Shown here one piece after another: positions 3,021-50,566 of a DNA stretch of 64,000 nucleotides. Under the pieces are notes generated by a model. That model did no database searches and was not told the origin of the DNA. It saw only the letters and a program-made list of their open reading frames with translations. The DNA comes from a candidate division SR1 bacterium. GTDB lineage: Bacteria > Patescibacteriota > Gracilibacteria > Absconditabacterales > Absconditicoccaceae. The position numbers were made by a program, and so were the translations under genes. Positions within the stretch are counted from its first letter, which is position 1. Every line of letters starts with the position of its first letter. Location: NCBI GenBank assembly GCA_026397515.1, contig JAPLUU010000021.1, forward strand, positions 1 to 64,000, read 5' to 3'.

Positions 3021-3028
3021 ATATTAAT

Positions 3029-4230: not shown

Positions 4231-4283
4231 ATCCAGAACTTAGTATTCAGAATAAAATATTTAGCATTTAAAATTTATTTATA

Positions 4284-4646: not shown

Positions 4647-4652
4647 GAAATT

Positions 4653-5318: not shown

Positions 5319-5374
5319 TTGTTATAATACTTATGCTACACTACTAATATTTTATTTGTTTTGATTATCACATC

Positions 5375-5794: not shown

Positions 5795-5846
5795 CCACAA
5801 TGCTTAATATTGAACATTAAAAATTTATTATTTAAATATATTATCA

Positions 5847-6074: not shown

Positions 6075-6312
6075 GAGTATCAAAGAACTTCTTTGAGAAG
6101 TTATTGGTGATAAGACAGATAAAACTCGTACTATTTTGGTGAAAACTGTAAAAATGCACCCATTGTACAAAAAGAGATTTATTGTAAGAAAAAAATATTA
6201 TGCTCACGATGAAGATAATACTTCTAAATTATGAGATACGGTAAGAATCAGAGAATGTAGACCCGTAAGTAAACTCAAAAAATGGAAACTTATAGAAGTA
6301 ACAAAGGCATAA
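6055..6312 (+). CDS. rpsQ: 30S ribosomal protein S17
   Basis: 85 residues; OB-fold primary 16S-binding protein. Motifs GDKTDKTRTILVKTVKMHP, KYYAHDEDN, GDTVRIRECRPVSK are diagnostic. The only ATG in frame is at 6055, inside rpmC, so the genes overlap by 20 nt. Three TGA glycines (6067, 6094 and in KLGDTV). Confidence 0.96.
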
Positions 6313-14728: not shown

Positions 14729-16225
14729 ATGACCTCATACAAAACAACTAATTCACTGATTATCTGAAGTATGATCCTTTGTTTCTGGCTTGTAATTCTT
14801 TTTTTGGATGGGACATTTTCTTCTCATCATGAAGTTACGCAAGAGGCAATTCTTCCTAACGCTATTTCGTCTTTTCAGGAAACAGCCGATGAGGCGACAC
14901 ATACTGTTGCTCCTCTGAGTACCGTGACTGCTATGGTCTCTGGAGTGCTTCATCAAAATTTATGAAATTCGCAAATATTTCAGGATTTAAATGTGTTGGA
15001 ATATTTGTATACCAAAAATAAAAATCCAGAATTACTTCAGCCTTTGGTAGAAAAATTTCTCCAATATTATCAGTTTGATAAAGCTAATACATACCTTTCA
15101 CTTTTGGTACAAGAGGCAGGTGATTATTTTAAACTAAAGATTGATCCACGTCAGGTAATATACACACGTTTTCATGATTCTACCATCGGTCTCGACTCGT
15201 CTAATTCGTTGGATGAAACCTTTGCTCTTATTTGACAATATAGAGCTCGTAATTTACTTACGGCAGATGATGAAATGTTTTATAAAGGACTAAAATCACT
15301 TTGGGTATATGACTATGCAACCGCTACTGCTGCTTTCTCAAAACTCACTGATCCTCGTTACAAAGATTTTACGTCTTCGTATGAATCAGCATTGGCAAAT
15401 TTCGTAAAAATAAAAAATCCACCAATATATTATAGAGACTGATTGGTTTCACTTACCTTACTCAAAAACTGATATTTTGTATTTGCTAAGAGACTTTCAT
15501 TGCACGCATTAAACCAAAATAAAGACTATATACTTCCTTATCAAGTGCTTGCTTATGCAAATTTTTTGACCCATAATCGAGAATCTGCTAAAGATTATTT
15601 TCTCAAGCTCGCAGACTTCGATACGAGTAATGCATTTCTCTATAAATTTCTTATAGGTATCTCGTATTATCGGTATGGTGACTACGAACAATCTCTTCTC
15701 TATCTTAATCAAGTAAATACTCCTGCATTACAAACGGATGTCTATAGATATATGTTGTTGTCCTATATTCAGACTGAAGATACCAATAGTATGACGCGTA
15801 TGTGGCAAAATCTTCTTGGAGAATCCGATCTTCAAGCATCTGATTTTTCATTATTTTTTGATCAGATGTTTTATATGCCATTTCGTTCATGAACTCCGTT
15901 TACCTTATATTCTGAAAATCCACAATTGGCTGATCTATATTTGGGTAAATGTTCTACACTTTTTAGTGGTAGTCAAGCTGATGTGTGTACCTATGGTGAG
16001 GTCTGATTGCAATTAGCAAAACAAAATTTATCTTGAATAGGACAAAAACTTTTGTCTCTGACAGAAATATATCATCAATCGCATCTCTATCATCTCCTTG
16101 GTGATTACTACGTTTCTCTCAAACAATATCCTGTGGCAAAGGAATATTATGTAAAAGCATTGAGTATCGCTGATACTACTAATGAACAAATAATTATTCA
16201 AAATAAAATTGCTAAACTTAAATAG
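14729..16225 (+). CDS. Membrane-anchored TPR-like repeat protein
   Basis: 498 residues. One N-terminal membrane helix (residues ~13-30, SMILCFWLVILFLDG), then outside the membrane a chain of helical pairs typical of tetratricopeptide repeats (YQFDKANTYLSLLVQEAGDY; YGDYEQSLLYLNQVN; YPVAKEYYVKALSIAD at the end). Several TGA glycines. First gene of a plus-strand set of four exported proteins (14,729-20,996), which suggests a scaffold for assembling them; this role is inference. Confidence 0.8.
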
Positions 16226-16271
16226 CTTAATGCCTGAAATATTATATATCTGATTTTATTCTGTACAATAT

Positions 16272-17687
16272 ATGAAGAAAGTTGCTGCTCTCACTATCAT
16301 ATTAGTATCAGTGATCACGTTTGTGAATAATTTTTCTTTCGCTGCAACTCCTGCACTTACTCCAGACCAACTTGCAGATAGAGAAACTGCATATTGTGCT
16401 CAATCTTCTATCTGTGGAACTGCACCAGAACAATTTACGTTTTTGATGGATTTTGTAAGAGAAATGACAAACGCAATAAAAACTGTCTGACCACAATGAG
16501 AGTATCTCGGTAAATACGTCAATCCTAATCGGTTTAAATGAACTGAATTTTCTGCTCCAAAAAAAACTATCTTAGGGAGATTTGCTAGTAATGTTGCAAA
16601 TAAAGCAAAATTTGCTTTAGCAACCCTTACTATTCTTTCAAATCCTGTAAATTTTGGTGGGCTCAAAGATATGGTATGATGAGTTACTTTGCTTGCCAAA
16701 AACAAAATATTTCTTAGAGATAATAAAATAATAGAAGATACAGAGTCTCTTGTCAATGATAAAAAATATGAGCTTGGACTCTGATGATGATGGTATGCAC
16801 AAATCATTCCTGAAAATCGTGCTATTATGCAAGCAATTATTGATACATACAAAGCTAAATGATTACTGGTTGATTCATCAATAATAAAGGATGGTACAAC
16901 ATACAATAACGTAACGGCCTTACTTACTCAAGCACTTTCTTCTGCAAAAAGTTTTTTGTATTTTGGTACTACTAGCCAGTTTGATGAAATGAGTAGGGGA
17001 TTTTCTGATGGTATATCCATATGATTTGTTCCTACTGCTATGGCGAGCGTAAAGCGTGAGTATGACTGTGCTAGATGACCTAATTATGTCTGTAGTTCTG
17101 AATGAAAAAAGCTCAAAGAATGGCGGAAGAAAATAACACAAATTTCTATTGGATCTAAAGATATTACTAAAGTGTATACTGATGCTGTACATAGACTTTG
17201 ACAACTATTTTCTAAACAACCAGATCAGGCATTTAAAGATAGAGAAGCTGATCTTCTTAACTCTGCTTATGGAGCAAGACCTACGTGATTGTTTGCGGGT
17301 AGTATAAAAAATTCTTTAAAAAAAATTAAAGATCAGGCTGTAGACTTAGCAAATGATGTGAGTACATTTCGAACATTCCCTCCAAATATTAAGGGTGTTA
17401 CGCAAGCTCTTCCTACAGCATTAACAGTCCCGACTCAAGCTACTGATCCTATTGTCACACAAATTGATACCTATGTATATGATGTCTTAAATAATCAACA
17501 AAATGCTATTAATCTTGTGAGTATGTCTGAAGTAAATGGTGTTACGCCTGCTTTTAAAATTCTTTGAAATCAAATTGCAAGTATCAAAAATGATATTCTC
17601 GGTGGTAAGGACAAAAAAAATAGTCTGATTTCTAGCTTATGAGCAGCGTGTGAACTTCAATGTGGAAGGTCTTGATTGTGTCGATAA
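16272..17687 (+). CDS. Secreted protein with paired cysteines
   Basis: 471 residues. Clear signal peptide (MKKVAALTIILVSVITF, cleavage near SFA-ATP). Helical body; cysteines occur in pairs at the start (AYCAQSSICG), the middle (YDCARGPNYVCSS) and the very end (ACELQCGRSGLCR), suggesting disulfides. No family recognised. Many TGA glycines. Its 3' end overlaps the longest reading of the next gene. Confidence 0.75.
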
Positions 17688-17713
17688 TATTTTATTTCGT
17701 TGCGTGTCTCTCT

Positions 17714-18826
17714 ATGATTGGTAAAAGAAAACAATGGATATCTATACTTTTGATGACATGTGTCATTTGTCTATTTTTTTCTTGTACTAAAACATTCGCT
17801 GATTTTCTTGGTGCTAGTAGTTTAAAGTTGTCTACAGATTTACCTGCAGATAATCAAATGAAAAATTTACTAGTAAATTATTGTACGGCTGTTTTAGGTT
17901 CTTCATCATTTATACAAAATAATTTTTTATATGATGCAAAGCAATCGGCTTTTGTTCATCTACTTTGTAGAAATATGAATATGCCTTCTCCATATTTTAA
18001 AGATGATTATTTTAAACGTACATCTTTTGCTGATTTATGATTTACTGATATTACTGTTGATACCATTGATCTTTGTAATCCTAGTTCTTTTGATAATGAT
18101 TGCGATCTCAGCGTAAATATTCCTAACCTTTTCAATAGCATCATGAATGATTACGTAAATATGAAACAACCGAATTTGTATGGAATGATAGCAGAATCTG
18201 ATAAAGATGATGATATGAAAAATCAGATTAATATATTTTCTTCTGGATATTTTGATGGTGTCCAGATTTGTGGAGCCAATGAAACTCGTTATCCTACTAC
18301 CTGTAAAATGATGCAATGATATATCAAAAATGTCCGTAATGTCCTCAGTGATGTAAGTATATTCAGTACTACTGGTGTTTTAGAAATGTCCAAACTTAAA
18401 GCAAAAACTGTTTCTTGTGATTCTATTACAGAAACTACTGATATTTTTTATTGTGGATTATATGGTGAGAAATGAGCTAAACTAACTTCGTTTGTAAATC
18501 TTGCTTATAATGAACTTTTCTACTATCGTTTGTTTATGTGATATTATCTTTCTATGATCCAAACATATCCATCACTTATCACGAATAATACCTATATGAC
18601 TGATTATAATTATATTTTAAAGACTTTTTCTACGCAATATATGTGGTCAAAGGATGCATTGTCTTTGAGTTTGAAAATGATGGCTGGTACGTATATGGCT
18701 TTTCCATTTCATGTAGGATTCTCTATGTATCAGGAAGATTTAGATGGTTTTGGTAAAGCTGTGGCTCGTATAGCACCGCCTATTTATACTTTATATGATA
18801 AGCTGAGAAATGTTCAAAAACCTTAA
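17714..18826 (+). CDS. Secreted hypothetical protein
   Basis: 370 residues from ATG 17,714, which gives a standard signal peptide (MIGKRKQWISILLMTCVICL, then KTFA before mature DFLG). The frame is open from ATG 17,660, overlapping the previous gene by 28 nt and adding a second hydrophobic segment; I prefer 17,714. Mature part is helical with scattered Cys pairs (QICGANETRYPTTC). Its stop overlaps the next gene by 17 nt, implying translational coupling. No homolog recognised. Confidence 0.7.
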
Positions 18827-20996
18827 TAGGACATTCCTAGTATGTATGTTGCTTATCGGAACGTGTTCCTCTGTTTTTGGTATTGATATGTCTCAAGCAT
18901 TTACTCATGCTCAAGAACAATCTGTGGGTATAGATTCTATTTTTAAATGAAAATCTACGGTAAGTAATCTTTTTTCTAAAGCATTGAAACTTGTAAAAGA
19001 TACTGAAGTCACTTCTAGTGTAGCTGCTTTTGATCAACTTAAAGAATACTATAAGCCTTGTACATTGGATACTATTGATTTTATCAATATCCTGTATCGT
19101 TCAAATAGTTCTTTTAGAAATACGTTTCTTTTAATTCTTCCTAAAAGAACCAAAACACCGACTTCTGACAATATCAATAAAAGCTATAAGAAATTTTTTA
19201 TATGTAAAAAAATTACCAATCCTACACCAGCTGATGCAGATGGTATAGATACGGAAATAAATACTAAGTATCTTGAAATATATCCTAATATATACAGCAT
19301 GTCTACTATCAATAAAGATAATTTTGGCTCCGATTTGTTTTGGAATGGAACAAAGGATGATAGTGATTTTGATCTCTTGTATGATATCAATCAGATAGGA
19401 AAAATATTGTTTGAAAATATCCAAGATAGTCCCGAAATTTTGTTTTATAAACTACCAAAATCACCGACAGCTTCAAATGCTTCTTCTTCATCTACTCAAA
19501 GTGCTTATCAGCTTTGAGGTGGCGGATGATCATTTCCTGGTACTATATCATCTAGTACACCACCATCTTCATCTTCATGATGATCTTCTTGATGATGATC
19601 TTTTACACCTACTCCAACTATTGTTTCTTCTCAAACGCAAAATATCTCTATCAATAAAAATATGCCTCAATTGTCCGATGATCAGGAAGTACAAAATTTT
19701 GTTGATAGTACAAAACCTGTAGTCTCTTCTAGTCCTGCTGGTGTCGCTTTGGTGTTTTGAAATCAATGTCTCGTGTCAGAAACGCCGCCTCCTGTTGAAG
19801 AGGTTACTCCACTCATGACTTCAGAAGAATATATTTCTGGTATCAATGCTTTCATAGACAATGCTAGTGTTAATGATGTTATAAATACTCATTTACTTAA
19901 AGTATTCACCAAAAAAACCCCTTTACCATTATGATGAAGTACATCAGATTCATGATATGCGGATACGGTCGCTAATACCTATGCGGAACAAGCATTTGGT
20001 GATGCTGCACCTGGTACGTGTGAATATGCTTGTAATACTTTGCCTCTCGATCAACAAGCTCAATGTCAATTTTCATGTGCTAGTTCTTGTACCAACAAAT
20101 GTAATGATACCCGTAAATCTACTCAATGAGCGTGTGCTACTTCATATACTACTCAAAAGGCTGAATGTGAACAATTATCTTCACTCAAAAAAGCAGCATG
20201 TTTGGTTTCTGCTGTTGCTACTAAAACAAGTTGTATAACTCAAATATCTACTGATGAGGCTCTTTGCCTTTCTGATTGTATGTGTTTTCTCGTCGCTTGA
20301 CCCAATGGTGCATGATGGGAAAAAGTAGAAGATATGTTTAGTATCAAATTTTGTAAGGTTCCTGTCCAGACAAAGACCGTTACTCCATGAAAAAAAGTAT
20401 TTAGTATCCAAGCAATTTTTCAGGAGATATCTGATGTATTAGCGTGACTCAGAGATAGTGGTCAGATGGTGAAATTTGCAAAAACTAAGGAGTTTCTCGA
20501 TGGAAACGTCAAAATAAAATTTGCTGATAATTTCGCTTTTAAATTATTAGTATGATTCAAACCCGTGTTTACTCAAAAAAGTACTACCATAAAAAATCAA
20601 GAACAGACACAGGCAAATGTCGATCTCAATACTGCTATCCTCGATATGAATATTGCTTCACCAGAAGCCGATGATCCTAATAAGTATGTTATTGTCTCTG
20701 ATTATATTACCAATAATGCAAATCTTGAACCTACAACTTCTTTGGAAGATATCAATAAAAATATTCAAAAATTTCAAGCTGCAGCTACTGCTGCAAAAGC
20801 AACAAAACTTTCTAATGATAAAATCAATGCAATTATAGATACTTATGCACAACAAAAAACTCCAACTTTATTTGTTCAAAATATGATTCAGTTTCTTGGA
20901 GATAATCAATTGTTTCTCCAAAACCTCAGTGATGCGTTGTTGGATATGAACAAAATGAGTCTTGAACTCAAGACCAAAATAGAAAGTAGTAAATAA
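18810..20996 (+). CDS. Secreted Cys-rich protein with Ser/Gly linker
   Basis: 728 residues. Signal peptide MFKNLNRTFLVCMLLIGTCS. N-terminal helical domain, then around residues 230-265 a Gly/Ser linker in which most glycines are TGA codons. About residues 403-517 hold a dense cysteine cluster (CEYACNT, CQFSCASSCTNKC, CLSDCMCF), probably disulfide knots. C-terminal ~150 residues are helical. Unknown function; last of the four linked exported proteins, so probably part of one surface assembly. Confidence 0.75.
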
Positions 20997-22238: not shown

Positions 22239-22709
22239 TTATGACAAAAAAGCACTGGTCAATAATTTCATGATTGCGTATGAAAATGATATTATCAAAA
22301 CCCCTATGATGGCATTGGTGATTGCTGCTTTTCCTTTTGACATATTTGATGGACTGAAAATACTACTTGCATACAGATATCCTGCATAGATAATCATCAC
22401 TACTCCTATAAATATTCCTATCTGAGAAAGAAATCTCACAAGATATACGATATAATCCAATAAGGTATCTCGTGTCATAATTCCTGATGCTATCTGATCT
22501 CCTACCTTGTTTTTCATACCAATTGCTTGTGCATTGTAGGCATCTCGTACACCACCTCACGTTTGTCCAACTGCATTTACCGCATTGACTACACCACCTC
22601 CACTGGATGCTTTAGGAATGATTTCAAAATCGGTAGGTGTCTGTGCAAAAGAACTTATCGGTGCGATAAGGAGTCCTAATGTAAAGATAATCAGAAGAAA
22701 TTTTTTCAT
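22239..22709 (-). CDS. VirB2/TrbC-like pilin subunit
   Basis: 156 residues. Signal peptide MKKFLLIIFTLGLLIAPISS with FAQ cleavage, a Gly-rich stretch, then two long hydrophobic helices separated by a short basic loop (SNMSKGKAAITNAIIG), the topology of type IV secretion pilins. Two TGA glycines confirmed (QTGGGV). Transcribed with the secreted protein and the giant gene upstream. A second gene with this architecture is at 49,960-50,490. Confidence 0.75.
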
Positions 22710-22740: not shown

Positions 22741-23649
22741 TTATTTACTGCATGTTTTAGAAACTGGGGCTTGTTGGACTATGGTTTGAAAAACATCTTT
22801 CACTTGAGTAATGAGATTCCATAATGCTAGAAGTTTTTCCTCTACAAAATGTTTTTTGGTATAGGCTTTTGTCGCTTCGGTAAATAATTGATTTGATTTT
22901 TCTACCATCAATATTCTGGTATATCCGTTTTCTCTTTTTACTCTGTCTTTGACCAAATTTTTACATCAATTCATATATGCATATCCTATTGTTATTTTAT
23001 TTGTGATGGTACTGTTATCATATATATTCTTCATGAATTCACAGATTTTATTATATTTATCACCCAAAGAAACAACACCTGTTTTGTTATACTGACTCCT
23101 AATATATTCTGTTGTGTATCAGTCGTGTATCGTTCGATATCATGTATATAATGCCTCTATTTCAGCTGCTTGTCTGCCATTGGGACTGTTTGCTATGTCG
23201 GTCATTTTTGTCCTTCGTTCTAGTGCTGTAGAATCTGGGCTGAGATTATATGCGAGTCCAATAATCCCATCAAGTCTTCTCATAGCCACATCTACCAGAT
23301 GATCAAAGAGAAAAGCACTTTCTGGAAATGGTTGTTTTATATTTTGTAGATCACTTGATGTACATGATTGTTTAATTATTTTTTGACAACAATACGATTT
23401 TAGATTTACAAGCGCTTGTTTAAATGCTGCTGTAGGTAAGATTCCTGTGTATATTGCTGTATTTCCATATATATATTCATATGCCTCTACTAATTTAGCA
23501 ATATGTACATCTATTTTTTGTACTGCTTCTCCATTGTCTATTAAAATATTACAATCATTAGCAAAAACCCTACTCATGCCTGCTATACATACCATCATAC
23601 CTATGAGTATACTTTTTTTCATTCCATTGTTTGCATATAAAACATTCAT
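22741..23649 (-). CDS. Secreted Cys-containing hypothetical protein
   Basis: 302 residues from the ATG 2 nt after the giant gene's stop; an inner ATG at 23,622 gives a cleaner signal peptide (MKKSILIGMMVCIAGMSRVFA, in pieces) and a 293-residue protein. Helical; cysteines at NDCNIL, SYCCQK, QSCTSS and the C-terminal KTCSK. Lies between the giant surface protein and the pilin and is presumably part of the same unit. Confidence 0.75.
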
Positions 23650-23651: not shown

Positions 23652-26600
23652 TTATTTGTTTGCTTTAATCTGTAACTGTAATGTTGCGATTGGTTTGTTT
23701 GATTGATCTTTTACTACAAAACTTGTATTTTGTCCTGTCGAATCAAACATATATTCTCCCACCAATGAGCTTGCATAAATTCATGGTATATAAATAGCTC
23801 ATACATTATTGGTATACAGAATACAATCATTTTTGCTATTTTTGATACAATATCCATTACTAAAATCACCAAATCCGTCTGAGAGTTGTAGTTGTTCGTA
23901 GTTTGGTTTACCTGCATTCATTTGTATGTTTTTTATAGTTTCTATAGGTAATACTACTTGGAATAAGGTAATGTTTTTGGTTATATCTCTTAACTCAACA
24001 ACTGGGATATGTGTACTGAAATTTACCTGTATCTTTATTTTGTTTTCAAATCATGACTTGATTTTTATTTCGCCTGTTTTGGGATTTATTGTAGCTATTT
24101 CATTTCCTTGGGTATCATATAATCCAATATCATTTCCCATGGTAAATGTTCCTCCGGTAATAATTGTTTGTTTTGGTGAAAGACTAAATCCGCCACCTGT
24201 CATCTGGTTTGTTCCATTAATATTACCTCGTATACCGTTTCTTAGTCTTTGGAAGATAACCGTTCATTCATCGAGATCATTACTAATCTTTGCTACAATA
24301 TCTGCCGTTGTTTCTCCCGTTTTTTTGACATCAACCACTTCGATATCTGGTATGTTTATATTTAGTGTCACGGTTTCTTTGGTAATATTGTTGTTTTGAT
24401 CGATAGCAATAAAATCAAAGCTTTCCTGACTGGCTCAGGTGAAGAATAGTTTAGCTCATGAGAATAATGCTCATCAGATATCTATAGTTCCTGTTGACGA
24501 TTGATTGTTTTTTTCAAGAATAGTTACTCCATCTTTTTGTACAATCATTTTAGCAACAATTACATTGTCCGTCCACGTTGATTTGAGTGTATAGAGGGTA
24601 TTGATATATCATTGGTGTGTTACTCCTGTGCTAATCGCTTCGTTTGTTGTATTTCTCCATAAGACTACATCACCTACAGGGGCAGTCGTATCTCATAGAT
24701 TTTGCATTCCTGCTACGGTTTGATTTGATCGTGGAGATGATTTTTTGTAGAGTTTAAGTGTTTTTTGCTGACTATTACTTAAGTCTCCTTGGGTAATATT
24801 TAATGTTGCAAGATTTGTATATAACCATTTTCTTGGTAAATTTTTAAGTGTCACGGTTATTTTTTCTTGTTCTGGATCATAATATTCTACTGCTAAGATG
24901 TTGTTTTCTAATTGACTTGTGATACGTTTTTTTACAAAATCTTTGTCTATAGTAAGCATGATGCCTGTATACTCTGTATCTTTTGGTAATATTACAATAT
25001 ATTTTGCGCTATTCCCTATTCATAAAATATTTTCAAATCGAGAGTTACTTGGATCATCTTTGTTGTCTATATTATTACTTACTTTCATAATATATCCATC
25101 TATTGGCTCTCCTGCTTTTTGGCTGTTTTTTCGTGATAACTGTAAATTGTCGAATGTCTGTCCTTCTGTTTTGAAATTTTTTGGTTCTTTATTCTTTTCT
25201 ATAACTTTAATCTGAATATCTCCGATGGTCATATATCCATATTCATCCGTATTGTTTCTTACTTGTTCGAGTGATGAAATATATCGACTTGATTGATTAA
25301 ATATATTTCGTGAGTGTTCGTTTGCATAACTATAGAATGTAGTATATTTTTGAGTGATTATATTCTGTCATTTTGAAAGATGGACAGCGTCTTGTTTTGC
25401 ATACTTAATGTAGATAGCATTAGCATCGTACATCATGATATCAGAAAGTTTATCATTGTTGAAATCTGTATCTGTAGTGTATGTTTTTTCTACGTTTTGT
25501 ATTTGTTGGCTTGAAACGACTGTGTTTACCATTGATTTTTCACTGGTGCTTGAATTTTGACTTCCACTGTATGCTTCTACAAATACTCCTTGTACATATG
25601 CTGAAATATCTGTACTATAATTTGATTCTGTTGTACTTGAACAGTTTGTACATGTTCACTGTCCTTGTGCCAATACTGGTGTATCGTTATATGCAAGGAG
25701 GGCAGTGTCTATTTTTGCTTTGGTAGTTTCTAGATATTTCTTTGAATTTTTATATGTAGTAGCAGACATGTTAAGTTTTTCTGGACCATCATTATTGACG
25801 GCATCCAAATATCCGTTTACCATTCTTTGATTGATAGTGAGATATGTTTTTGTCGGATCTTCTTGTGCTTGTAATATATTTTTTGTGGTTCAATCAATGG
25901 TCAATAATTGTGCTTTCAAACTTACTGATGTTGTATCATCATTGACTAATGCTACTTCATTATTTCTTATTTTTTTAATGAAATTATCATAGTTCTGAAT
26001 TTCTTTTTCTAATTTTTTATTCTCTTTTATTTTGTTATTTATAATACCTTTTGCCTCTGCTTCTACTTGATTAATCTGGTTAGTTGCAGGTAAAACGGTA
26101 GATTTGTTTTCTACGGTTGCCAAAATAGTTTTGACTCTATCATTCATTTTTTTATCCGTGGTTGTTTTGTTTTGGAACTGTATGAGTCATTGTTTGAGGT
26201 CCGCATATGCTACTTTGTAATCTATCATTCCTGTCGTTTCTTCTTTTGGTGTACTATAGGCATTCACATTCACATTGATATTGAGATTCTGATCAAAATT
26301 TTGTACTTGATCAAATCCACTGGTTATAGCATTATTATTGAGTGTGTTATTGAGATTATCCATCGCCTTTTGTATTGGAGCTTCTATGGTTTTGGACATA
26401 AAATTATTCGACATCTGAGCAATGCTATTAAATACATCATATACACCATCAAAATTGAATTTGAGTGTGGTATATGCATCGAGTTTATAATCAAATCATT
26501 GTAGTGGAGGGTCTTTAAATTTTGTTGTCAGATCAAAATAATCAAAAATAGGAACGTTCCATGTTCTTTGTGTTAATTGTTCTACTTTCCCTTTGACTCA

Positions 26601-29600
26601 TTTTTCTCCTACAAGACCAATACCTCATTTTACGATACAGAATACTTTTCCTATAAAGTCTGCTACTTTAAGTATTGCACTTATTTCTGGCATTATCTTT
26701 GGAATCTTTGGTGCTGGTGGTAATACCGGAAGATCCATCTTTATACTTGGAATAAACGATGGCGGTTCAGGCAATGTTGGTGGTTCAGGGATGACAGGAA
26801 TTGTTGGTAATACAAAGTCTATGTTTACATTTAAATCAATACCTACATCGATTTCTGGTGGTTCAGGAAGATTTGGTAATTGTGGTAATGGTATCTTGAT
26901 CGGTACAAAATTTATCTTTGGTAATACTATACTCATACCCAAATCCATATGTGAAAGATCCATATATACGCTTGGTATCTTAAATGCTGGAATCGGGAAT
27001 ATCGGTAGTTTAGGACATAGGAATGAAAGACTACATGAAAATGAACCATAGTTATCGTTACTACATTTTGAACATTTTTCTGATCGATTTACTGAGAAAT
27101 CTATAATTGCTTGCCATGTTTTTATTGTTCCTACGAGAAGAATAATCGCATCCACATATTGTGAAAATCTTGTACCATTAACACTTAAGAAATTATTTAT
27201 ACTTCCTACAACATCTGAAATAAGCGCTGAGATCTCGGTTAAATATCTATCTGTAAGGTGTGTTCGTTGATATAATTGTGAAGGGAATTCTTTATACTTT
27301 TGAAGTACTTTGATATTTTGTTTAACTGCTCTTATACTTTCTGCAGTGCTTTCTTGAAATTTTACAAAACCTTGTATTCATCCTACTATATTACTACATT
27401 TTCCTACTCCATCTACTATTGTTGTTATATTGTCTAATTGTGTTTGTTCTTCTGGAGTTCTATTTTTTTCTCTCTTAAGCAACAATATTCATTGTATGCT
27501 TTTCCATTTTGCTAATTTAGCTACTTTTACCAAGGTGTTCTTAAGATTTATTCCCATATTTGCTACGTCACCTCGCATTTTTTCTGCAGTGGTATCTTCT
27601 GGTAGTTTGAGAATTCTATCCATATCGTTTATCTCAGTAGTTATCCGATTTTTTAAACCTTGTGTAGTGGTATCTGTTCATACTAATGTTGCTTGCAATC
27701 CTTCTAATTTAGTCTTCATATCTTGTGCTTGTGTCTTGTCTGTTGTACCACATATTGCTAATGCTTTATTCACTGCACCTTTCCAATCTTCTATTATTTG
27801 TTGTTGTTTCTCCATCCATATCGTCAGATAACTTACATATGCATTAATATCATCACTCGTGAGTGCTGGTACTTTGATATTAAGTTCTTTGGTATCTATA
27901 TTTATGAGTGGTACCTCATTGAACATTTGTTGGATAGCTTCAAATGGATTGCTTCCTACTTTTTGTGAAAGACTATTTAGACTTTGTTTAGAAAGATGTT
28001 TTGTTCGTTCTACTGTCCCTCATGTACTGTTTGGTTTGACATCTATAGCGTTTGCATTGGAGACTCAAATCAACCCTGCGGATTTGTCTGCCGCATTGAT
28101 TGATTTATATGTTTCTGATAGATTTCCTATCTTATCGAATCATTGAAAAACGGTACTCACATCAGGAAGATCAACTTGAATTGTCATCTTGGTCAGATTG
28201 TTTTGAATATATGTTATCTGACTAGTCATCCATTTTTGTACTATACATTTTACTAAACCTTTTGTTTTTGCTCCTACTATTTTGAGCGTGACCTTAGGTC
28301 ATTTTTCAAGAGTATATCCATCATAATCTGTTCATTCTTGTAGTTGTTGTGTTGCGTTACCATAATCTTGATTTGCTGAAACTCTAGTTGGTTCTTGATC
28401 CATAGCAATAAGTCACCATGCATTTCCTTGTGGCATTGCCGGGCTGTAATTCGTCGTACATGATTCGCAGGTATTCTCAAATGAATTTGCAGATGCTATC
28501 TGAAGCGGTGAATTTGCTGTTGTTGCTGTCTGTCCAAAGACTATGGTGTTGGTAACTTTTGGTGGATTGTTACATGTTCATTGTTTAGCTGCATTATTTT
28601 GTGCTGGAGTAACTGCTTCTGTAGGTGCTCATGGATTAGTGTTGGTATTGTTGCATTTTGTCAGTGGTGGTACAGCGAATACTACACAGTTTCCTCCCAA
28701 ATCACTAAATGGTTTTGGTAATACAACGGATGTAGCATAAGGTCCAAAACACATAGCTATTCCTAGTCCGAGTGTAAGGGTCGGTGCAATATATAATCTG
28801 AATTGTGATGAATACATTCCTCATGGTGCTCCAAGAAAAAATCCATCTGTGTCTGTAGGACCTCACTTTTGTGGAAATCCGAAAATTCCAAAAAATGGAG
28901 TTGGTCAAACAGGTGTTTGCAGTGTTGCTGGAATACTTAAGAGTGGCATCCCTTTTCCTAAAGTTTTATTGAGTGTATTAAATATTGGATAGAGTGGACT
29001 TGTTACTTTTGGTACACATCAAAAAACATGATAATCTCATGGAGCTAAGAATGCTTGATTAAATGGTACAGGAACTCACTGACATCATTTTCCTTTTGAT
29101 AAAGAAAATCATTGGCAAAGTCATTCGAGTGCTGCGTCCAATTTTTTGGATACTCCCGCTGTTGCTTGATCAATAAAATTCATACCGACGCTTAGATTTA
29201 CTCATAATCATCCATTGGTAAGCAGAGAACTCAGCAAGTTTTTTGCACTTCGTGCTTCCATATTTTCCATTCCCGGTACCGAAGAAACTGCTTCTAAACT
29301 ATCTACGTTTGCTAACGTATCTATCAAACCACCAATTGCTCCTTGTGTTGTTGCTTTTGCACCACTATTGTATGCATCCATTTCTACCTGGATATCATCA
29401 TATATTTGATCATATTTTCTTTTGTCTGTTGCATTGTTGAAAAATATTCGTCTATTTTTTTGACATGCATCAGCAGGACTTATTGCAATGTCTGGTAATG
29501 TGTCTTTATATTTGCTTTGTGGTAATAAATCTTGATCTTGTACTTCTATGTTTGTGATAGGTTGCCCTTGGTAGTTTACTTTGTATGAAAAACTTAGTTT

Positions 29601-32600
29601 ATCTCAAGAATTGAGTTGGATATTATCCATTACAAATTGATATCATTCTGGCCCATTCCAATTGATAATTATTCATCATGTATTTCCTGACGTAAAAACT
29701 AATGATGGAATTTCTTTGGTATCTGAATCTGCTGGAATATCTCGTGGTCACAATAATTGTTCTATATACGTAAGCTTATTATTATTTTTCTTTGAAACGA
29801 TGGTGGTTTCGATAACTACTTCATCACCTTGTCTCAACACTCATCAATTGATATCTACGTATTTTTTATATACACTGACTATGTCATTATTATTTGTTTC
29901 GCTGATAGGAAGATACGTTATTCCTTCTGGTGGAAGCGTTTCATACACTGGTGATGTAGTAAGTGGATTGTCTATATATGCTAATTGACTAGCTCATGAA
30001 GCAATCAATGTATCGTTGTTTGCGACCATAGTTTTGATGTCATTCATAGTTTGTATTTTGAGTGCTGCTAGGTCTGTTGATGACATATTTTCTGTACCAT
30101 CAGAACCATTACTATTTTTTTCTTCATCGATACCTTCCGTTGGAAATGGTATTCCTTTTCGATGAATAAGACTGCCGTCTTGGGCGTAGAGATTTTCATT
30201 TATCTTGATGCTATAACGTTTGACTGTTTGATAATTATCTTTTTGTCTCGTATACCAATTAGCGTCACAAGCTCCGGTAATAGTGGAGAGATAATTTGCT
30301 CAATTGTTCGTGTTTCCTCCATAGAATATTTTAATATCACCAAAAGAATCATTTGTTACAATGTCTATTTTTCCATCTTTATCCATATCTTCTATAAACA
30401 TCTGTTTGATGCTTGAAAAATCATCAGGAGTCGGATTTTTCTTTCCTGGTTCTGTACTCGTATTAAGACATATATTTTTTCCATCGACGGGAAATATTCA
30501 TTTATTATTCAAATATACTATTCATTTATTATTTGTTGTAAGGATAACAATATCTTCAAATCCATTTCCATCTACATCGCCTACATGTATCTCTTTTATC
30601 GGTTCTGCGATAATCATCAGTTCTTGCATGTTTTTATATGCATCTGTTCCTCCATAATTTTTGACTAATTTCACTACTCAATCTGTATACACTACGAGAA
30701 GATCTTTGAGTCCATCATTGTTGAAATCGATGGGGATCACTTTGAATATTGTCTTGTCTGGATCAGCGTAAATGGTCTGTCCAATTGATGAATCAAAATC
30801 AGTATTAGGTATGTTTGGATTTTTTTCTCTTCTCTCAAGGAGAGGATCTCAGAAATTTATGAGGAATTGTGATCCATATGGTAGTGTAGCTTCTCCGACG
30901 GTTTTCCCATTGGCAAAATTTGCAATATTTTTGAAATTGCTGGTAAATCAGATACCTAATAATGCGTCACTACTATCTTCTATAGAAGCATATCATTGTT
31001 TGGTAAATGCGCTATTGTTTATATAGATTCCTATTCCTTGCGTGTTGGTAGATCATTCGCTGAAGATATTTGTAGTTCCATAGGTGATTGGATCTTGGAT
31101 ATCTATATTTGCTTTGTTTGTTGTAATATTATCATTGCTCCAGATCATACATTTACCTATTGTTTTCCCATTTAGTGTCATGGTATATGTACTCATATCT
31201 CCTAGCATTTCGTTGTCTGCAGTAATTGTTAACGTTTGATCTATCGTCATTCATTTGGTAAGGTCAAGGATATCTTTTCCATTGATAGTTATCTTCTTTT
31301 CTGTTGCTTCATTACCAGTAATGATACTATCTGTCGGTTCTGGTATATAAATGAGTGTATTACTATCTTTTGTAAATTGATTTATTGCTCAACTATCTGC
31401 TAGTGTTTTAATCTTGTAATTATTCGTCAGACCAAGATGTATCTTTGCTATCTCCGGCATAAGCACTACAAATTCTTTATTTTCTATAATCATCGTGGAT
31501 ACTTTGGTGTTGATGCTTTGTATCTGTGCGTTTGGATTTATAATATATTCTATTTGTTTGATTTTACTTGGATCAACTAACTCTGTCGTAGTTGCTAGTA
31601 ATTTCTCTGATTGGTTGGTTATGTTGTTTATTGTTTTATTATTTTCAGAAAAATATCATCGTTGATTTCCTCGATCCGTTCAGAAAAGATTGAGATACAT
31701 AACGTTGAGTCATGTCTTTGGTATAACGCTGTCTTGGATGATAAATCTTTCGTATCCTGCAGTCTGATCAGAAAGTGTTCTATCTTTTATATATGCAAAC
31801 ACATATCATTCACCACCTGCGCCTGTAGCAGTTATGGTATATGTATATTCTTGACCTGTATAATTAAACTCTGTAACATCGCTTGTAGCGGCTCATATAA
31901 CTCATACTTTTATAGTACCTGTTATTACTTTATTGTTTCGGCTATCCACTACATTGATGGTTCCTTTGCTACCTGTTGTACTCGTAAAATCCATTCTGCT
32001 TTTTTCCAGTTTCAGTAGTACGGTTTTTGCTGCTCATGGATTGACCGTTACTGGGATATTGATAGGAGTTACTCATGGAATATTTATCGTAATAATATCT
32101 GTTCATGCTTTGAAACTTGGATATAGGGTAATGGTCTTTTCGCCATTATCACTATCCATAATGACAAAGTCATTAGATTTTATAAAACTGAATTGATTTT
32201 TAGTTATATTATTTTTTACTATAGATTTTACTTTGACCGTTCATGGAATTAATAATCACTGTTTACTTACGATATTTACTACGTTGTTTAATGGCTTGTT
32301 GTCTTTTGTCCTGATTTTTATTACGAGACTTGGAAGTTGATCCGGTCTGATTTGTGGTGTTCCGTCTGTGTCTTGATATTGTATACCGCTTTCATCTCTT
32401 GGTAAAGTAAAGTTTATCTTTGGTTGTAATGTTGGTACATTGTTTGGAAGTATATTTACTATACCTTTGACTACATTGATAACTTTTGTTTTTACTTTAG
32501 GTGTTGTTTTTATATCTACTCATAATCTTGGTGCTAAGTTTGGTGCTATGGTAACTGTGATTGCTTTGGTGTCTGTATTGCTTTTTGTTCCTGTACTTAT

Positions 32601-35600
32601 AATAGGTGCTTGATAGATAAATGACGATGTAGCAAAATTATCAAACTGAATATTTGCGTTTGCGCTGGCACCATCATAAAATTTTCCGTTATCACTACCG
32701 ACACTGATGGTATATGCTTGTATGTTTTGTCCTATACTATTATCATGACTATCTTTAGCGCTTATGAGTAATGGCAGTTCTGCTCACTCCATCACTATAT
32801 CTGGTGATTGGAAGTCTATGACATTAATAGGTCCTGGAAGAATATTGATTACTTCTTGTTTAATGATACAGGTGTTTCCTATTGATGGACACAATTCTAT
32901 CTTCAATGCTGTACTTCCTGCTTTTTTTTGCTCGTTGGGTACGATTTCAAACGTATATTCTTCTGTGTTTGGATTGTAATATTCTTGTGCTTTGGTTGTA
33001 CATATATTACTACTGAGTTGTTGTCCATTTCTTCTTATCCCAAAACAATTGTCTCCTGTTCATGATATTTTTACATTTACCATTCATACATTTTGTGCCA
33101 TGTTTATTTTTATTTGTGCGTTTCCTGTATTATCTACTCCAATATTATCGTCTACGCCAATTATTGTTTTGTCTATATGTATTATAACGTTATTGTTGTA
33201 TCTTTGTAATATTTCTTTTATATTGCTTGGTGCATCATTGATAATCGTTTCATTATTTGGTCATCATCGTTGTGCGCCATATTCTTTTCGTCCGCTACTG
33301 ATTTCACTACCTATGTCTGCTACTTTTTTTATACTTCAAAATACAACTGGTCCAAGTGAATTTTTGAAACTTACTTTGATATCAAATGGTTTCTTGAGAA
33401 TTTTCTTTGCCCAACATTTCATTGCTTTTGCCCATGGTGATGACATTGGACTCAGTATAAAGAGTGGTGATGATCCATTACTATCTACTCATTCACATTC
33501 ATCTACTTCAGCTTGGAGATCTGCAGCACTTGATTCTACGAAGTTATTCGCTGTGGTTTTTGGTTTTTCTTGTGCTGTTTGTATCGATTTGATAAATGCT
33601 GGTGTGTCTTTGGCTGAAATATAATCTTCACCATCAGAATTTATATATGCGACCTCATATCCTGTAGTATTATATGTCGGTGTAATAAATTTACCTTGAT
33701 CGTTTCCTTTGGTAAGATAGGTGTTTGTTACCTGACTAACTTTTCTATTTATATCAAAGCTGGATTTGATCTCAGCCATATCTTCCGCAACGGTGGTTTG
33801 TTGTAATCTTTCCGGTCGTGTACTATTTTGATAATAAAATAATTTTGCTATCATATCCAATTTTTGATCTATTGTTGTTGCCTCTGTATTTTTTCCATAA
33901 ATAGCATTTTTTCCATATTCAGGAGCGTTTTCTAATGTATCTAAAAATCCTATCAGTTGGGTTATAAAATAATCTGTAGGTATAGGATTGAGTCCATAAT
34001 TGTGGATACTTGCTATTGGATTTGCTAATGCATCATATCATCCAAGAAAATTAAATTGGGCAGCTAATGATGTGTGGTATGCTGTCCTATTTTGTCGTTG
34101 TGTGTTTAATATGGTATTATATTCTAATGCTTTACCTCTCAGATACGCTTTGATTGCATCTCTAATCTCTTCTGTTGTTTTTAACACAAGTTTATCTCAA
34201 ACTTTTTTATATACTTCCACATCATAAAGATTTGGATAATTTAATCTTACGTTGTTTCAACCGATACCTTGGAAAGTAATATTTCTGATGCTATCGATCG
34301 GTCTGTCTTGTGTTGTCAGATTCATTCCTTTATTTTTTTCTTTTTTGTTCGTGTCCGTTGAAACCTCAAAGGTATTCATTATTGCTTTGGTTTGTGCGAT
34401 CTCTATGAAAATGTTTGTCGGAGAAAATGATTGATTGATCTCTACAAATGGTTGTACTTGTCAGTTATCACCTGCATAACTATGGATCTTATCTATTTTG
34501 TCATTGATAGTGGTAATAGTAGAGACGGTTACCGTATTTATTATGTTATCCAATACATCACAAATGGTTTTGTAATAACTTATTGTACATCCAGCTCCTG
34601 TCTGTAATACTGCTATAGCATTTCTTTTTGCTATTATCCCTGCTATATAGGCACTATTAACTTGTCCGATTGTACTGTAAATTCATGATGCTATCGTAAA
34701 TGTACCTTTGAGTATATTAATGTTGGTGTTTATGGTGTTGAAATTTTGTGTTATATCTGTTTTCCAGGTATCCAGAATTTCTACATTTTGTTTTTTAAAT
34801 TTTTCTGATTGAATGATATCATTAAAATACTTAACCGTGTTATCTATGCTTAGATCATTTATATAGTTTCATAATCCATCTAATCCTTCATTGATCTTTT
34901 GTATTCTTCCTGTTATTTCTAATATTTTTGCTTGATTTAGATTTTTCCCGCTCCAATCATTTGCTTTGGCTACTACTTGTGCAGGACTCATCGAATTAAG
35001 ACTTCATGCAGCGAACGCTGTTATCTCTCCCATGCCTGCGTTACCCGAATCGACTAATTTTTTTAACTGTGTCAGATTAGAAACAACTCCTGTCATATCT
35101 GTACTAGTAGCACCACTGAATTCTATATTTTTACTCAATATGTCCGTTTGTGTTGATGTAAGATCATTGGTAACATTATTGTAAAATATTTCTAATGGTG
35201 AACTGTCTTTGAATTTATATATGTCTGTATCTGAAATCTGATCTCGTGTTGGTGAAATATTCATGATTCTTGAATCAATTGTCTTGTAGGTATAGGCGTG
35301 TCATTTCATATTACATCATAATATATCTGTAGGATATGATCGATCATACAATACTGCTTTTCCTCCATATATAGTGTGTTTGTTTGCTGCTGCATAGAGT
35401 GGATAGAGTGTGAAAAAATTATTTTGTGCATAGGTTTTAGGTGGGTTATATCCCCGTACAGGCGATTCGAGATTTGTATTGGTTGGTTTCTGGTTGGTAA
35501 ATTTTAAATTGACACCATTTGCATTTGGACTGCTGATATATGAAAAAATATTACCATATTTATTTTCAATTTTTTCTTTTACGGCGAATGTTTCTTGCAT

Positions 35601-37490
35601 GATACTTGCATAATTTTCTGCTCAGATATATGAATATGCACCTGTCTGTGCTGCATCTATTTTTCTAGATCCTGCAATATCATAAATAGGAAATTTTGCA
35701 TCTTTGTAATTGTAATTTGTCAGTTTATATGTCGTGGAATCTATATTTAGAGGTGAGGCTCATCCTCGATTTCTTTGACTAAAGTCTGTCAATGATTCAC
35801 ATCCTCATTGTAATTGTGGATCATTTGTTTTACACTTATCTTGGTCTGCACTGTCCTGAGGTTTTCGTGTTTTTTTCCATCGGATACAATACCCGAAGAG
35901 GTGTAAGTTACAATCCTTGTTCCGAAGATCTTGTTTGTTTATTTTTAATACATTATAGAGTGCTAATTCATCTTTGGTATTGTTGATATTGTATCATCTA
36001 TTTGCTTCTACTTGTGTTGAAAAAATGTTGTATGATCATCCTATAGATTTACCTGTGCTCGTGGTAATTACCTGTCCAGAAATTGAGTTAAGATTTTGGT
36101 ATGTTCATCTATATGCACTGGTATCCTGAGCATTATTGATGAGATTTGCGTTCTCACCAAAATAATAGTTTTGATAATAATTGTATTTTGTTCGGACACA
36201 TTTTGGTGGTGGTAAACCTGTTACTCGAAATGTTGGAGGTATTTTGATATCTCATTCAAGATCCAATTCACTCACGGGAACGGGTATAGTCATATAATAT
36301 TTTTCTGTTTGTATTTTATCATTCAATCCTTTTTCTAAGACATCATTCATTTGGATGAGGAGCGGTTGTACATTATTATCTATATCTCCTAGCAATCGAT
36401 TATCTTTTTGGAGAATTTTGTCGGTGAGTGAACTGTAGTCGGTGAATGTTTGTCATGATGTGCTCTTATATCGTCTTGCAAGTCCAGATACATTATTTTT
36501 TATGGTTGAAAGAAATTGTGTACTCATAAGTCCATCATATCCTTTGAGCATTTCTTGTGTAGCTTTTTTGAGTGTGAGCGTCGGCATTTCCGATGTCGTG
36601 TTTTGTGATAATCCTGCGGCGACACTATTCCTATCTCCTATATCATTGGCATATGCTAATAAATCTGGGTCTGTCGTACTCTGGAGATCGGTTTTTAAAT
36701 TACTTCCTAAGGCAAGTGTACTCTCATTGTGTTCATCTTTGAGAATATTGAGTAAGAGATTGTTGAATCTATGATATCCTATGTCTTGTGCAAAAATCAT
36801 ACTATTGGTATAATATTTTGTGTTTTCTGGAATGAAATATTTTTTGAGTCCGATAAAGTCTTCATACCGAATCGCTTTGTCTACGAATGTTGTCGGATGT
36901 TCATAATATGATTTTACTTTGGTGAAAAAATCGTTGTATTGTGATGTAGCATCAAATTTTATAATTCCATGCCAAAGTTCTGCTTGTCCATTGGGATTAT
37001 TGTTATACACGAAAAACTTTTTATTTGTATCATAGACAAATTCTTGATTTTCGAAGTCTACGTATGGATAAATACTTGGATAGATAAATCCGTTATTTTG
37101 TACTACAGGTAATGGAATATCTCCTATCAAAATAAGTCCTACTAATTTAGAGCTTGCATCTTTGAGTCATTCAAAATACATATTTTCAAGCATCTGTGAG
37201 ATCTCATGTGCTTTGAGTGTTTTCGTATCTATTGGTAAAACCACTGCTTTGCTATTACCTATTTTACCTTGGATATATTTAGTCGTATATCGGATTAATC
37301 CATTATTACCATCACCTTTGATGGTATCATAAATATTTTTGTCTACAAAAACCGCTACAATGTTGGTGGTGTCACCTGTTGTAGCTGCATAAACTTTTTT
37401 TCGGTCAACAAAAATTGTGTTTTGTAAAAAGTATGATAATCCATAGAGGATAATAAATATTCGTACAAGAAGTTTCTTTGATCAATTCAT
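23652..37490 (-). CDS. Giant secreted surface protein, 4,612 residues
   Basis: One continuous frame of 13.8 kb; I read every codon from 37,490 to 23,652 and met no TAA or TAG, with about 95 in-frame TGA. N-terminal signal anchor (KKLLVRIFIILYGLSYFL). Residues ~35-150 form an alpha/beta module (VAVFVDKNIYD, GLILIGDIPLPVVQNN) resembling the gingipain-like C25 peptidase N-part, low certainty. ~740-1,300 helical; ~1,330-2,130 repeated beta-sandwich, Ig-like; ~2,250-2,370 FG-GAP/VCBS calcium repeats (DFNNDGLKDLL, DVDGNGFEDIV, DMDKDGKIDIV), another near 4,005; ~3,500-3,600 Pro-rich (PEPPTLPEPP). Probably adhesin-like; precedes pilin genes. Confidence 0.85.
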
Positions 37491-37690: not shown

Positions 37691-38731
37691 TTATTGAATT
37701 ACTAATTTCTTTGTTGTTTGTTTGTTATTATATGTATATTTGATTACGTAAATACCAGGCAGTAAGCCAATAACTGATATATTTCCATTATTTATAGCTG
37801 TTTCTTTTACTAAGCTACCATTCATGCTATATATACTCACTATAATATTTTCCGATGTGTTGAAATGAATTACATCGTGAACAGGGTTTGGCCAAAAATT
37901 CACTTCTGCAACCATTGGTTTTATTGATACAATTGTTGTCATATTAATTATTGAATCAATACGTATGGAGTCAATCAATAATGAATATATTTGATTATCT
38001 GCTTGCACGTTGGTGGGTTGAAGGGCCACGTTATATGCAGAACTCCATTCTTGTGCTGGTGCCCACATGTTCAAATGAAAATGTGTCGGTGCAGTGGGAA
38101 CATTTGTAGATGTTCTTACCAATATTCCATCAATATACCAGGTTACTTCGTTTGGTAACCATCTTATCATAAATACGTGATAATCAGTAATTTGGTTAAC
38201 AATTTGTGAAGAGTCAGGATGACCTACACCGAGAGGTTCATTATTGTAAATATTTGTATGCACATAATTTGATTGGTTGGTTAATAATTCCCAATCAATC
38301 TCATTATGAATAGTGTTGCTTGGTGGAATTAAGTCGAATGAAAATAGTCCTGCCACTATTCCGCCAATCATTGGATTGTTGATTTTGGCTCTGATACTGA
38401 TAATTAAACCATTACCGGGTGCAAATGTTTTTTGGGTAATTAGATCAGTTCCATACATTGAAAATCCTGTCGGATTATACGTTTCTAAATTAACATACAC
38501 ATTGTCGTTGATGATACTTGGTAATGCAGCTGGAATACATCTAAATTGTGTTCTTCCGACGTATGTGCCGTCAGAGGGGCCAGTCCACGTAGGAATGTAC
38601 CACCAAGCGCTGTTTATTGATGTTCCATTAAATAGATCTCTAAAAATGTTAACGGTTGTTTGACCTTTTACTGTTACGGTTGCTATACTGAAGATAGCCA
38701 AAACGATTACTAATTCTTTAATTTTTTTCAT
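37691..38731 (-). CDS. GH16-like glycoside hydrolase with T9SS-type C-terminal tail, non-UGA gene
   Basis: 346 residues. Signal peptide MKKIKELVIVLAIFSIA. Beta-jelly-roll domain with the GH16 catalytic motif NEIDWELL (Glu144, Asp146, Glu148), so probably cleaves beta-glucans or galactans. C-terminal ~75 residues match type IX secretion sorting domains: NFWPNPVHDVIHF, IYSMNGSLV, GLLPGIYVIKY, KKLVIQ. That tail is a Bacteroidota trait and would be useless without a T9SS. Stop TAA, no TGA codon. Its promoter box begins 12 nt beyond the stop of the HD gene. Confidence 0.85.
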   Translation of the reverse strand: MKKIKELVIVLAIFSIATVTVKGQTTVNIFRDLFNGTSINSAWWYIPTWTGPSDGTYVGRTQFRCIPAALPSIINDNVYVNLETYNPTGFSMYGTDLITQKTFAPGNGLIISIRAKINNPMIGGIVAGLFSFDLIPPSNTIHNEIDWELLTNQSNYVHTNIYNNEPLGVGHPDSSQIVNQITDYHVFMIRWLPNEVTWYIDGILVRTSTNVPTAPTHFHLNMWAPAQEWSSAYNVALQPTNVQADNQIYSLLIDSIRIDSIINMTTIVSIKPMVAEVNFWPNPVHDVIHFNTSENIIVSIYSMNGSLVKETAINNGNISVIGLLPGIYVIKYTYNNKQTTKKLVIQ

Positions 38732-47225: not shown

Positions 47226-48374
47226 TTATTCCTGTATAAAATGAGGGAAAACTTTTATTTTTTCATTGTCTATGTTGTAGGATTTATGGACAATATCTTT
47301 CATGAAATTTGATGGTACTAGAAATGTGTCCATCCTTTTTTCTAACTGTTTTTTTATCAGTCGTAAAGAAAAATATTTTCCGATGATAGCTAATTTTTTC
47401 AATGGATTCTTAGTTGTATATGAACTGAGAAAATGCTTCAAAGTGAATGGTGTTTTTACTTGGTGTTCACTCGTTAACTGGCTTGGAAACGGATAAAAAT
47501 ATCCTAAATCATGGAACATCATCCATTTTTTTGCTGTACTATTTTTACTTGCTCGCATTGGTGCTCGCCCAAGATATCTCATGACACTGTTGTATCGGAT
47601 GAGATCTGGTTGTATTTTTTTTATTTTTCTTTGTAATTTTATCGCTTCGTAAAAATTCCCCAATCCGGTAATAATTCCTAGATATTTTATACATTTACCC
47701 AATGTTCATGATGGTACTTTTCAACCACATAATTCTACTTCATACCCGTGTTGTTCTAGTAATTCTTTCACATCATTGATATACGTCTCTATCCCTCAAA
47801 TTCTATTGATAAAATCTGATACTATGATTATTTTTTTGACTTCTTTCCCTGCGAGCGCGTGGAAACGAATGACTCGACTATCTTTGGTATAATTTTGAAT
47901 TCAGAATTTAGAATCAGAAAGTTTAGAATCTAACATTACAGAATCTTTCTTTTCTACTAAGAATTTAATTAGATGGTGGAGCTTTTGACCCGTGGTGGTT
48001 CATTGTTGGTGGGTGAGATCTAGTTCGTTACTTATGAAATCCTTGAGTCCTCATTTGGCGTAGCCGATAGGTGGTAATCATAACTTTATTGCTGTCAATG
48101 CAGAAAGTCCAAATGTTTCCAGGCATTCTGATGGTATGAGACAATAATCGCAATTTTCTATATATCTTTTGATTGTTTCTAAGCTTTGTCGTCCGAAAAA
48201 ATGAATATTTGTATTTTTGCTCGCTAATTCTTGTATCTTAGATTCTCTACTTCCTGAGCCAAATATAAATAGTTCAAATGGTAACTCTTTTCATTTGTAC
48301 ATCTCAATCATATCGATGATACCATCGATTCATTTTTCTTTTTCAAGTCTTCCAAAGTAGAGGAGTCATACCAT
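47226..48374 (-). CDS. GT4-type glycosyltransferase with swapped domain order
   Basis: 382 residues in one code-25 frame. Residues 1-~165 are the C-terminal, nucleotide-sugar-binding half of a GT-B enzyme (LLYFGRLEKEKGIDGIIDMI; PSECLETFGLSAL; PIGYAKGGLKDF). After a linker (~165-205) comes the N-terminal, acceptor half (KKIIIVSDFINRIGGIETYI; LVPSNFMKDIV; KVFPHFIQE stop). The normal order is the reverse. The linker is encoded by simple-repeat filler (47,890-47,945). Could be a real circular permutation, or the leftover halves of two tandem genes. Second Glu of the EX7E motif is Thr. Several TGA glycines. Confidence 0.75.
47890..47945. repeat. TAGAATTCAGAATT-type filler inside the glycosyltransferase frame
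   Basis: Degenerate units (GAATTCAGAATTTAGAATC) identical in kind to the intergenic blocks at 2,944 and 4,231, here translated as the inter-domain linker SDSKLSDSKFGIQNY because TGA is read through. Confidence 0.6.
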
Positions 48375-48398
48375 CAATTACAAATTATGAATTAAGAA

Positions 48399-49959: not shown

Positions 49960-50490
49960 TTAGAATCATTTAGCAATATATTGTACCAATCTAATAATGA
50001 CGTATGAGGATACTACGATGAGTAATCCTACTAGAGAACCAATTATTCCTTTTTTTGCATTTGCTGGATCTTTTCCTGAACTTGCTGCAAAGATAAACAT
50101 AAGTCCAGAAACTATAAGTGCTATAGTTACCAATGTTCCAATGAAAAATGTGGCAGAAAGTACTATATCTTGAACGAAAAGACCTACGGATGTAGGATCG
50201 TCCGTATTTCTTACGCTTTTCCTGATTCCAAGCGTATCGTAGATATTGAGTTTACATTGTCCGTTGACGAGTGATTTTTCGTCACAGGTGATTCACATGA
50301 CTGATTTATTTGATGTGGGTGTATTTGTTGTCGGATTGGGATTTGAACATGTTCATCCGCTTGCTGAATTATAAATTGTCCCTGTGTCTCAACAATTATC
50401 AAGATTTAATTGTTCTTGTGTTGTTAAAGCAAAAGAGAAACTGCTTCCTAAAAAAATCACAATCAAAAACGTACTAACTATTTTTTTCAT
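49960..50490 (-). CDS. Second VirB2/TrbC-like pilin
   Basis: 176 residues. Signal peptide MKKIVSTFLIVIFLGSSFSFA, an intermediate domain with three to four cysteines (NCGDTGTIYN, GGTCSNP, ITCDEK, GQCKLN), then two hydrophobic helices (DIVLSATFFIGTLVTIALIV; IIGSLVGLLIVVSSYVIIRL) split by basic GKDPANAKKG. The loop matches the KGK/AKK loop of the pilin at 22,239. Four or more TGA glycines. Stands alone upstream of trmD on the same strand. Confidence 0.75.
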
Positions 50491-50513
50491 TTTTTTGTAT
50501 ATGAAATAAATCA

Positions 50514-50566
50514 AAACCCCTCCATCCGCTTAGGCGGACACCTCCCCTTACCAAGGGAGACTATAT
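50514..50566. repeat. Palindromic intergenic element
   Basis: CCCCTCCATCCGCTTAGGCGG with hairpin TCCGC-TTAG-GCGGA and a following CCCCTTACCAAGGGAG hairpin. Elements of this wording are common between genes in Candidate Phyla Radiation genomes; not coding. Confidence 0.5.

Follow-up and report, generated by a model that had tools for sequence, protein, structure and literature searches.

Within the 64,000-nucleotide stretch of DNA analysed here (hereafter the window; positions 1 to 64,000 of contig JAPLUU010000021.1, assembly GCA_026397515.1, from a candidate division SR1 bacterium) we find one very long reading frame on the minus strand, encoding a protein we refer to as the giant, followed on the same strand by the genes for a small secreted protein, p302, and for a VirB2-like pilin of the T4SS_pilin family (Table 1). 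Three genes encoding proteins that we name X, B and C face this cluster from the opposite strand, with a methyltransferase gene and a MazG-like gene in between.

Table 1. Positions in the window of the giant gene, its recognised or predicted parts and other features
Positions	Strand	Feature	Support
16209..17687	+	X, secreted protein encoded before B and C; an internal ATG at residue 22 is the likelier start	Order X-B-C conserved in relatives
17639..18826	+	B-type accessory protein	hhalign of the family to standard-code B, prob 93.5 over 79 columns
18795..20996	+	C-type accessory protein, 733 aa	Profile of C hits 19218-19466, E 3.3e-8; family-to-family hhalign prob 98.1, 1e-13
22239..22709	-	T4SS_pilin (VirB2-like), third gene of the same-strand cluster	PF18895, 27.9 bits against a cut-off of 26.6; same position in 8 other genomes
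22741..23649	-	p302, secreted Cys-containing protein, 2 bases after the giant	BLAST: directly downstream in 11 other genomes of the family
23652..37490	-	Giant protein, 4,612 aa under code 25, ATG start, 96 TGA (Gly)	No internal TAA or TAG; orthologs
25440..25466	-	Fourth calcium-loop-like motif, DFNNDKLSD (residues 4009-4017), distant from the other three	Motif scan; column conserved
26511..27338	-	Module M3 (residues 3385-3660): helices, CxxC, then conserved LPxLPxxP / LPPPPKxP stretch	Conserved block; structure of low confidence
27072..27869	-	Predicted long antiparallel helices (residues about 3208-3473)	AF2 block pLDDT mostly 70-87
28641..29138	-	Module M2 (residues 2785-2950), Cys-rich, FRLYxxPTLTxxxGxAxCxGP	Conserved block; no Pfam match; found only in this giant
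29391..29858	-	Predicted beta-sandwich domain (residues 2545-2700), resembling pilus/MSCRAMM adhesin domains	AF2 block pLDDT about 70-85; Foldseek to RrgA Jo.In prob 0.97, E 0.03; VIA-align Z 6.0; suggestive only
30291..30773	-	Three FG-GAP / DxNxDGxxD calcium-loop repeats (residues 2240-2400)	PF13517, 2.9e-6, 28.2 bits against a cut-off of 26.9; motif scan
36882..37367	-	Predicted gingipain A-subdomain-like alpha/beta module, the N-module (residues 42-203), without the catalytic subdomain	AF2 pLDDT 78; VIA-align to RgpB Z 10.5, rmsd 2.6 A over 126 residues; Foldseek probability 0.98, E 0.09
37386..37490	-	N-terminal signal sequence (residues about 1-35, ...KKVYA|A)	Inspection of the sequence; same hydrophobic N-terminus in the orthologs
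37691-38731	-	GH16 enzyme with a Por secretion tail (Bacteroidota type IX sorting signal)	
47226-48377	-	Glycosyltransferase with domain matches in inverted order	
49960-50514	-	Weak TrbC/VirB2-like protein beside tRNA m1G methyltransferase	
55300-58836	-	Code-25 frame, 1,178 aa	No Pfam match
58983-62459	-	Code-25 frame, 1,158 aa	No Pfam match

The original prediction of an uninterrupted 4,612-residue surface protein with about 95 UGA glycines, given without a strand, held up as an observation. If the standard code is applied, the longest open run in this frame is 303 codons, and the next longest run free of TAA and TAG in any frame of the window is 1,186 codons. The protein aligns end to end with three orthologs of the same genus (64-67% identity, 4,553-4,617 aa), and identity by codon position is 0.76/0.84/0.55 and even along all 13.8 kb, indicating that the whole length is under coding constraint in one frame. 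Thus, a chance frame is ruled out and a hidden frameshift, which together with internal stops had been named beforehand as a reason to reject the observation, is unlikely. The glycine codons of the frame are GGA 139, TGA 96, GGT 66, GGG 13 and GGC 10. In aligned orthologs that use the standard code, Gly is found at 32% of TGA sites, 29% of GGN sites and 4.9% of other sites, and all 14 conserved TGA columns are Gly. The genome also contains a tRNA with anticodon UCA, which ARAGORN names SeC from the anticodon, but whose sequence is closest to tRNA-Gly(UCC) (52 of 74, score 21 against 9 or less for eleven other tRNAs). The reading of UGA as glycine (NCBI genetic code 25) therefore rests on evidence independent of the open frame.

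To assess the distribution of the giant we used a profile of the N-module built from 28 sequences. It matched 241 of 353 genomes of the class, nearly always once per genome, and in a draw of 380 genomes across the phylum it matched only genomes of this class, with no match in about 343 sampled genomes of other classes. The unrelated module M2 hit the same 20 genomes plus one more of the class. The orthologs are colinear, range from 3,300 to 7,900 aa, and occur in SR1/Absconditabacteria and Gracilibacteria, as had been predicted, but also in Peregrinibacteria. Families of the class that use the standard code carry the giant as one unbroken frame of about 3,300 to 7,861 aa, showing that it is neither an oddity of this genome nor dependent on the recoding; the longest lies beside groES/groEL-like genes. 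Two families (f5 and f8 in our numbering of families) gave no match in any listed genome, and in the one genome examined from each (G051 and G054) we also found no C or B protein, although T2SSF (PilC) genes are present, suggesting an apparent joint loss or absence. No viral contig encodes the N-module by the patterns used. A class-wide alignment was too diverse for a pattern scan, whereas a family-level one worked.

Four blocks are conserved over the class: the N-module, the FG-GAP block, M2 and M3. An AF2 model of residues 36-640 matches gingipain RgpB over the A-subdomain only, the structural match ending at model residue 168. Three of the 28 members give weak Peptidase_C25 hits (best 0.005), but there is no cysteine in residues 1-430, the catalytic B-subdomain with its Cys-His dyad is missing and no catalytic-domain family was found, so that the module cannot be a normal C25 protease. 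A second model, covering residues 2545-3735, had a mean pLDDT of only 59.6; within it the beta-sandwich, whose best matches are pilus adhesin domains, and the long helices are better predicted, whereas the Pro-rich part is not reliable, and the weaker matches of this model (Cas12a, ABC exporters, helical bundles) were discarded. Sequence searches of the PDB with the whole protein, the N-module and M2 gave nothing useful, and NCBIfam gave no hits for the giant or p302. Only the FG-GAP repeats match Pfam above cut-off. Outside the hydrophobic N-terminus, with its likely cleavage site, we found no convincing transmembrane segment, in line with a soluble, non-pilin protein carrying a Sec-type signal peptide, as judged by inspection.

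The interpretation that accompanied the original prediction, an extracellular machine with a signal anchor, a possible protease-like N-module, a long helical part, Ig-like and FG-GAP calcium repeats and a Pro-rich stalk, next to a VirB2-like pilin, is partly supported. By sequence this is a secreted or surface giant with a signal peptide, FG-GAP repeats, a long helical part, beta-sandwich domains and a Pro-rich stretch, and the neighbour is a T4SS-pilin family protein. However, the N-module has only the predicted A-subdomain fold, UGA-Gly is not essential to the giant, and the VirB2-like pilin is not the partner shared across the class, where the recurring neighbours are type IV pilus genes and secreted proteins A, B, C and D. 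The presence of B- and C-type homologs in the same window had been missed.

In standard-code relatives the giant lies in a broader cluster: two membrane proteins (the second with a weak, below-cut-off match to a PilO-like family), PilB, PilC, pilin, the giant, then A, B, C and D. PilB and/or PilC, and usually a pilin, lie upstream on the same strand in 17 of 18 genomes with enough flank (in genome G057 PilC only, with three genes between), plus two earlier cases, and A, B and C follow in the same order in 18 of 18. These 19 genomes fall in eight families (f11, f16, f18, f20, f21, f169, f173 and f174), and the identity of PilB, PilC and pilin is firm (T2SSE 1e-126, T2SSF 1e-57, N_methyl). The genomes were not a random draw, as most came from the phylum search, and families f1, f2, f3, f6, f7, f10, f14, f15 and f17 showed no pilus linkage in the genomes looked at; in the window genome and in the other code-25 genomes examined the giant is not next to pilB/pilC. 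The linkage may reflect one ancestral event kept since, but its retention over such diverged proteins still argues for a functional tie. In one code-25 genome (G013) the order giant-p302-X-B-C runs on one strand without interruption. A genome-wide profile did not find B in the code-25 genomes, and the assignment of B in the window rests on the family-to-family comparison. We do not claim homology of p302 to A (hhalign prob 27 only), and comparison of X with A-D did not establish a relationship.

Taken together, we favour the view, with a probability of roughly 0.55, that the giant is the core extracellular subunit of a type IV pilus-associated attachment apparatus, kept nearly always as a single-copy gene in most of this class of episymbiotic or predatory bacteria. 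In this view it would be exported by Sec with a cleaved signal peptide, fold outside the cell with calcium, and work with small secreted partners (A/p302, B, C, D) and a type IV pilus that pushes it out or anchors it, much as PilY1 sits at the tip of type IVa pili. The beta-propeller-type repeats, the beta-sandwich and the inactive gingipain-like N-module would contact the host or prey surface, and the helical and Pro-rich modules would be stalk or docking parts. The frame, the code, the orthology, the operon linkage in relatives and the domain matches are demonstrated by our analysis, whereas export, association with pili, adhesion, and an unchanged role in this genome, where the gene is no longer next to pilus genes, are inferred. 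Colinearity and near-constant copy number point to a core component rather than a variable adhesin, and there are precedents: PilY1 with minor pilins primes and tips T4aP (PMC7541494), and a Saccharibacteria T4P-2 subunit with a beta-propeller, PilX2, is needed for normal host binding, which is lowered upon its deletion (PMC12206443). On the other hand, only three adjacent FG-GAP repeats plus one distant loop are recognised, fewer than the seven blades of a classical propeller, no structure covers the propeller or C-terminal parts, and M2 and M3 have no known relatives.

An unlikely but not negligible alternative is that the giant is a general surface fibre or S-layer-like adhesin, which coats the cell and binds hosts without a mechanical link to pili, the pilus neighbours reflecting shared regulation or a shared lifestyle locus. 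Giant surface proteins are described as common in Absconditabacteria and are proposed to give the fibrous coat of Vampirococcus (PMC8080830, PMC13059738), the code-25 family has lost the pilus linkage, and FG-GAP and beta-sandwich domains are generic adhesin parts. Retention of a colinear, nearly always single-copy gene across deep branches is, however, unlike fast-changing adhesins, and the linkage to PilB-PilC-pilin and to four specific secreted partners recurs in eight families. Less likely still is a type II-secretion-like system in which PilB, PilC and pilin form a pseudopilus that exports or moves the giant and its partners, with the giant as a cargo or scaffold rather than a pilus tip. 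The ATPase scores GspE and PilB almost equally and the pilin scores best to GspG; moreover, T2SS pseudopili interact with substrates, and PilY1 was proposed to be an analogue of T2SS substrates (PMC7541494). Yet these bacteria are thought to lack an outer membrane and secretin, so a classical T2SS would have no outer-membrane step.

A T4SS-linked conjugation or secretion adhesin, suggested by the VirB2-like pilin gene that is third in the cluster in nine genomes of this family, is very unlikely, since the PF18895 family has many copies in nearly every genome of the set and is absent from this position in the standard-code operons. In all 79 genomes searched it has 1 to 21 matches per genome, in some of them inside open frames of 1,300 to 3,635 aa, so that it looks like a reusable membrane module rather than only a pilin. 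Least likely is a toxin- or protease-type effector attacking host cells, for which the gingipain fold match speaks and which is weakened by the missing catalytic half. A more speculative and doubtful possibility, which our data do not exclude, is a separate kind of type IV filament machine special to this class, whose business end is a multi-subunit secreted complex built on one protein of 4-8 thousand residues with folds not seen elsewhere (M2, M3), used to seize and possibly feed on host cells.

Among known systems, the PilY1/PilC tip adhesin of type IVa pili (PMC7541494, PMC13190605) shares with the giant a signal peptide, an N-terminal alpha/beta domain, calcium-loop beta repeats and, in relatives but not at the window's own locus, a gene location with pilins and pilus assembly genes. 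The giant differs in being several times larger, in having four secreted helper proteins instead of a pilV-pilW-pilX set, in modules M2 and M3, and in an N-domain that resembles the gingipain A-subdomain rather than vWFA. The PilY1 propeller family PF05567 is not among the Pfam matches of the whole protein at E up to 1, and we therefore regard the giant as probably working like PilY1 but by sequence not as a member; a class-wide search for PF05567 gave no match even in controls, leaving its absence from the class unproven. PilX2 of Nanosynbacter lyticus (PMC12206443) is likewise a patescibacterial, pilus-linked beta-propeller protein that contributes to host binding, but it is a pilin with a propeller, whereas the giant is Sec-type, non-pilin and much larger, with an N-module not found outside the class.

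Giant surface proteins of this lineage are known in general: those of Vampirococcus lugosii and Strigamonas, very large predicted surface proteins with adhesion domains that are proposed to serve in host attachment, are listed by size and domains (PMC8080830, PMC13059738), and one of the listed giants may be the ortholog. Large extracellular proteins are reported in Peribacteria (PMC4736985), VCBS-type proteins in Gracilibacteria proteomes (PMC11452946) and FhaB-type giants without full-length homologs in other Patescibacteria (PMC11809585). In the open-licence PMC papers searched we found no description of one conserved, single-copy, pilus-linked giant family. How Absconditabacteria, Gracilibacteria and Peregrinibacteria seize their hosts is not understood, and a nearly always single-copy giant shared by most of the class and linked to pilus genes in many relatives provides one concrete candidate, with its partner genes, instead of a list of large proteins. 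Since it is broken into pieces under the standard code in code-25 genomes, and has so few Pfam matches, annotation pipelines can easily miss it.

The GH16 gene directly upstream of the giant has no TGA codon and no homolog next to the giant in the relatives examined, and is probably a recent horizontal acquisition. In G013 the giant-p302-X-B-C run is followed by one further same-strand frame of 419 aa and then (within positions 1-6264 of the stretch examined, L150) by three secreted or membrane proteins of 619-791 aa with similar N-termini, which by eye look like T4SS pilin/VirB6-like proteins. Elsewhere in the window there is a second weak TrbC/VirB2-like protein and two adjacent code-25 frames without Pfam matches (Table 1), while the glycosyltransferase has its C-terminal-type domain match (residues 5-119) before its N-terminal-type domain (193-381), which might reflect a permuted gene, two fused genes or an assembly fault.
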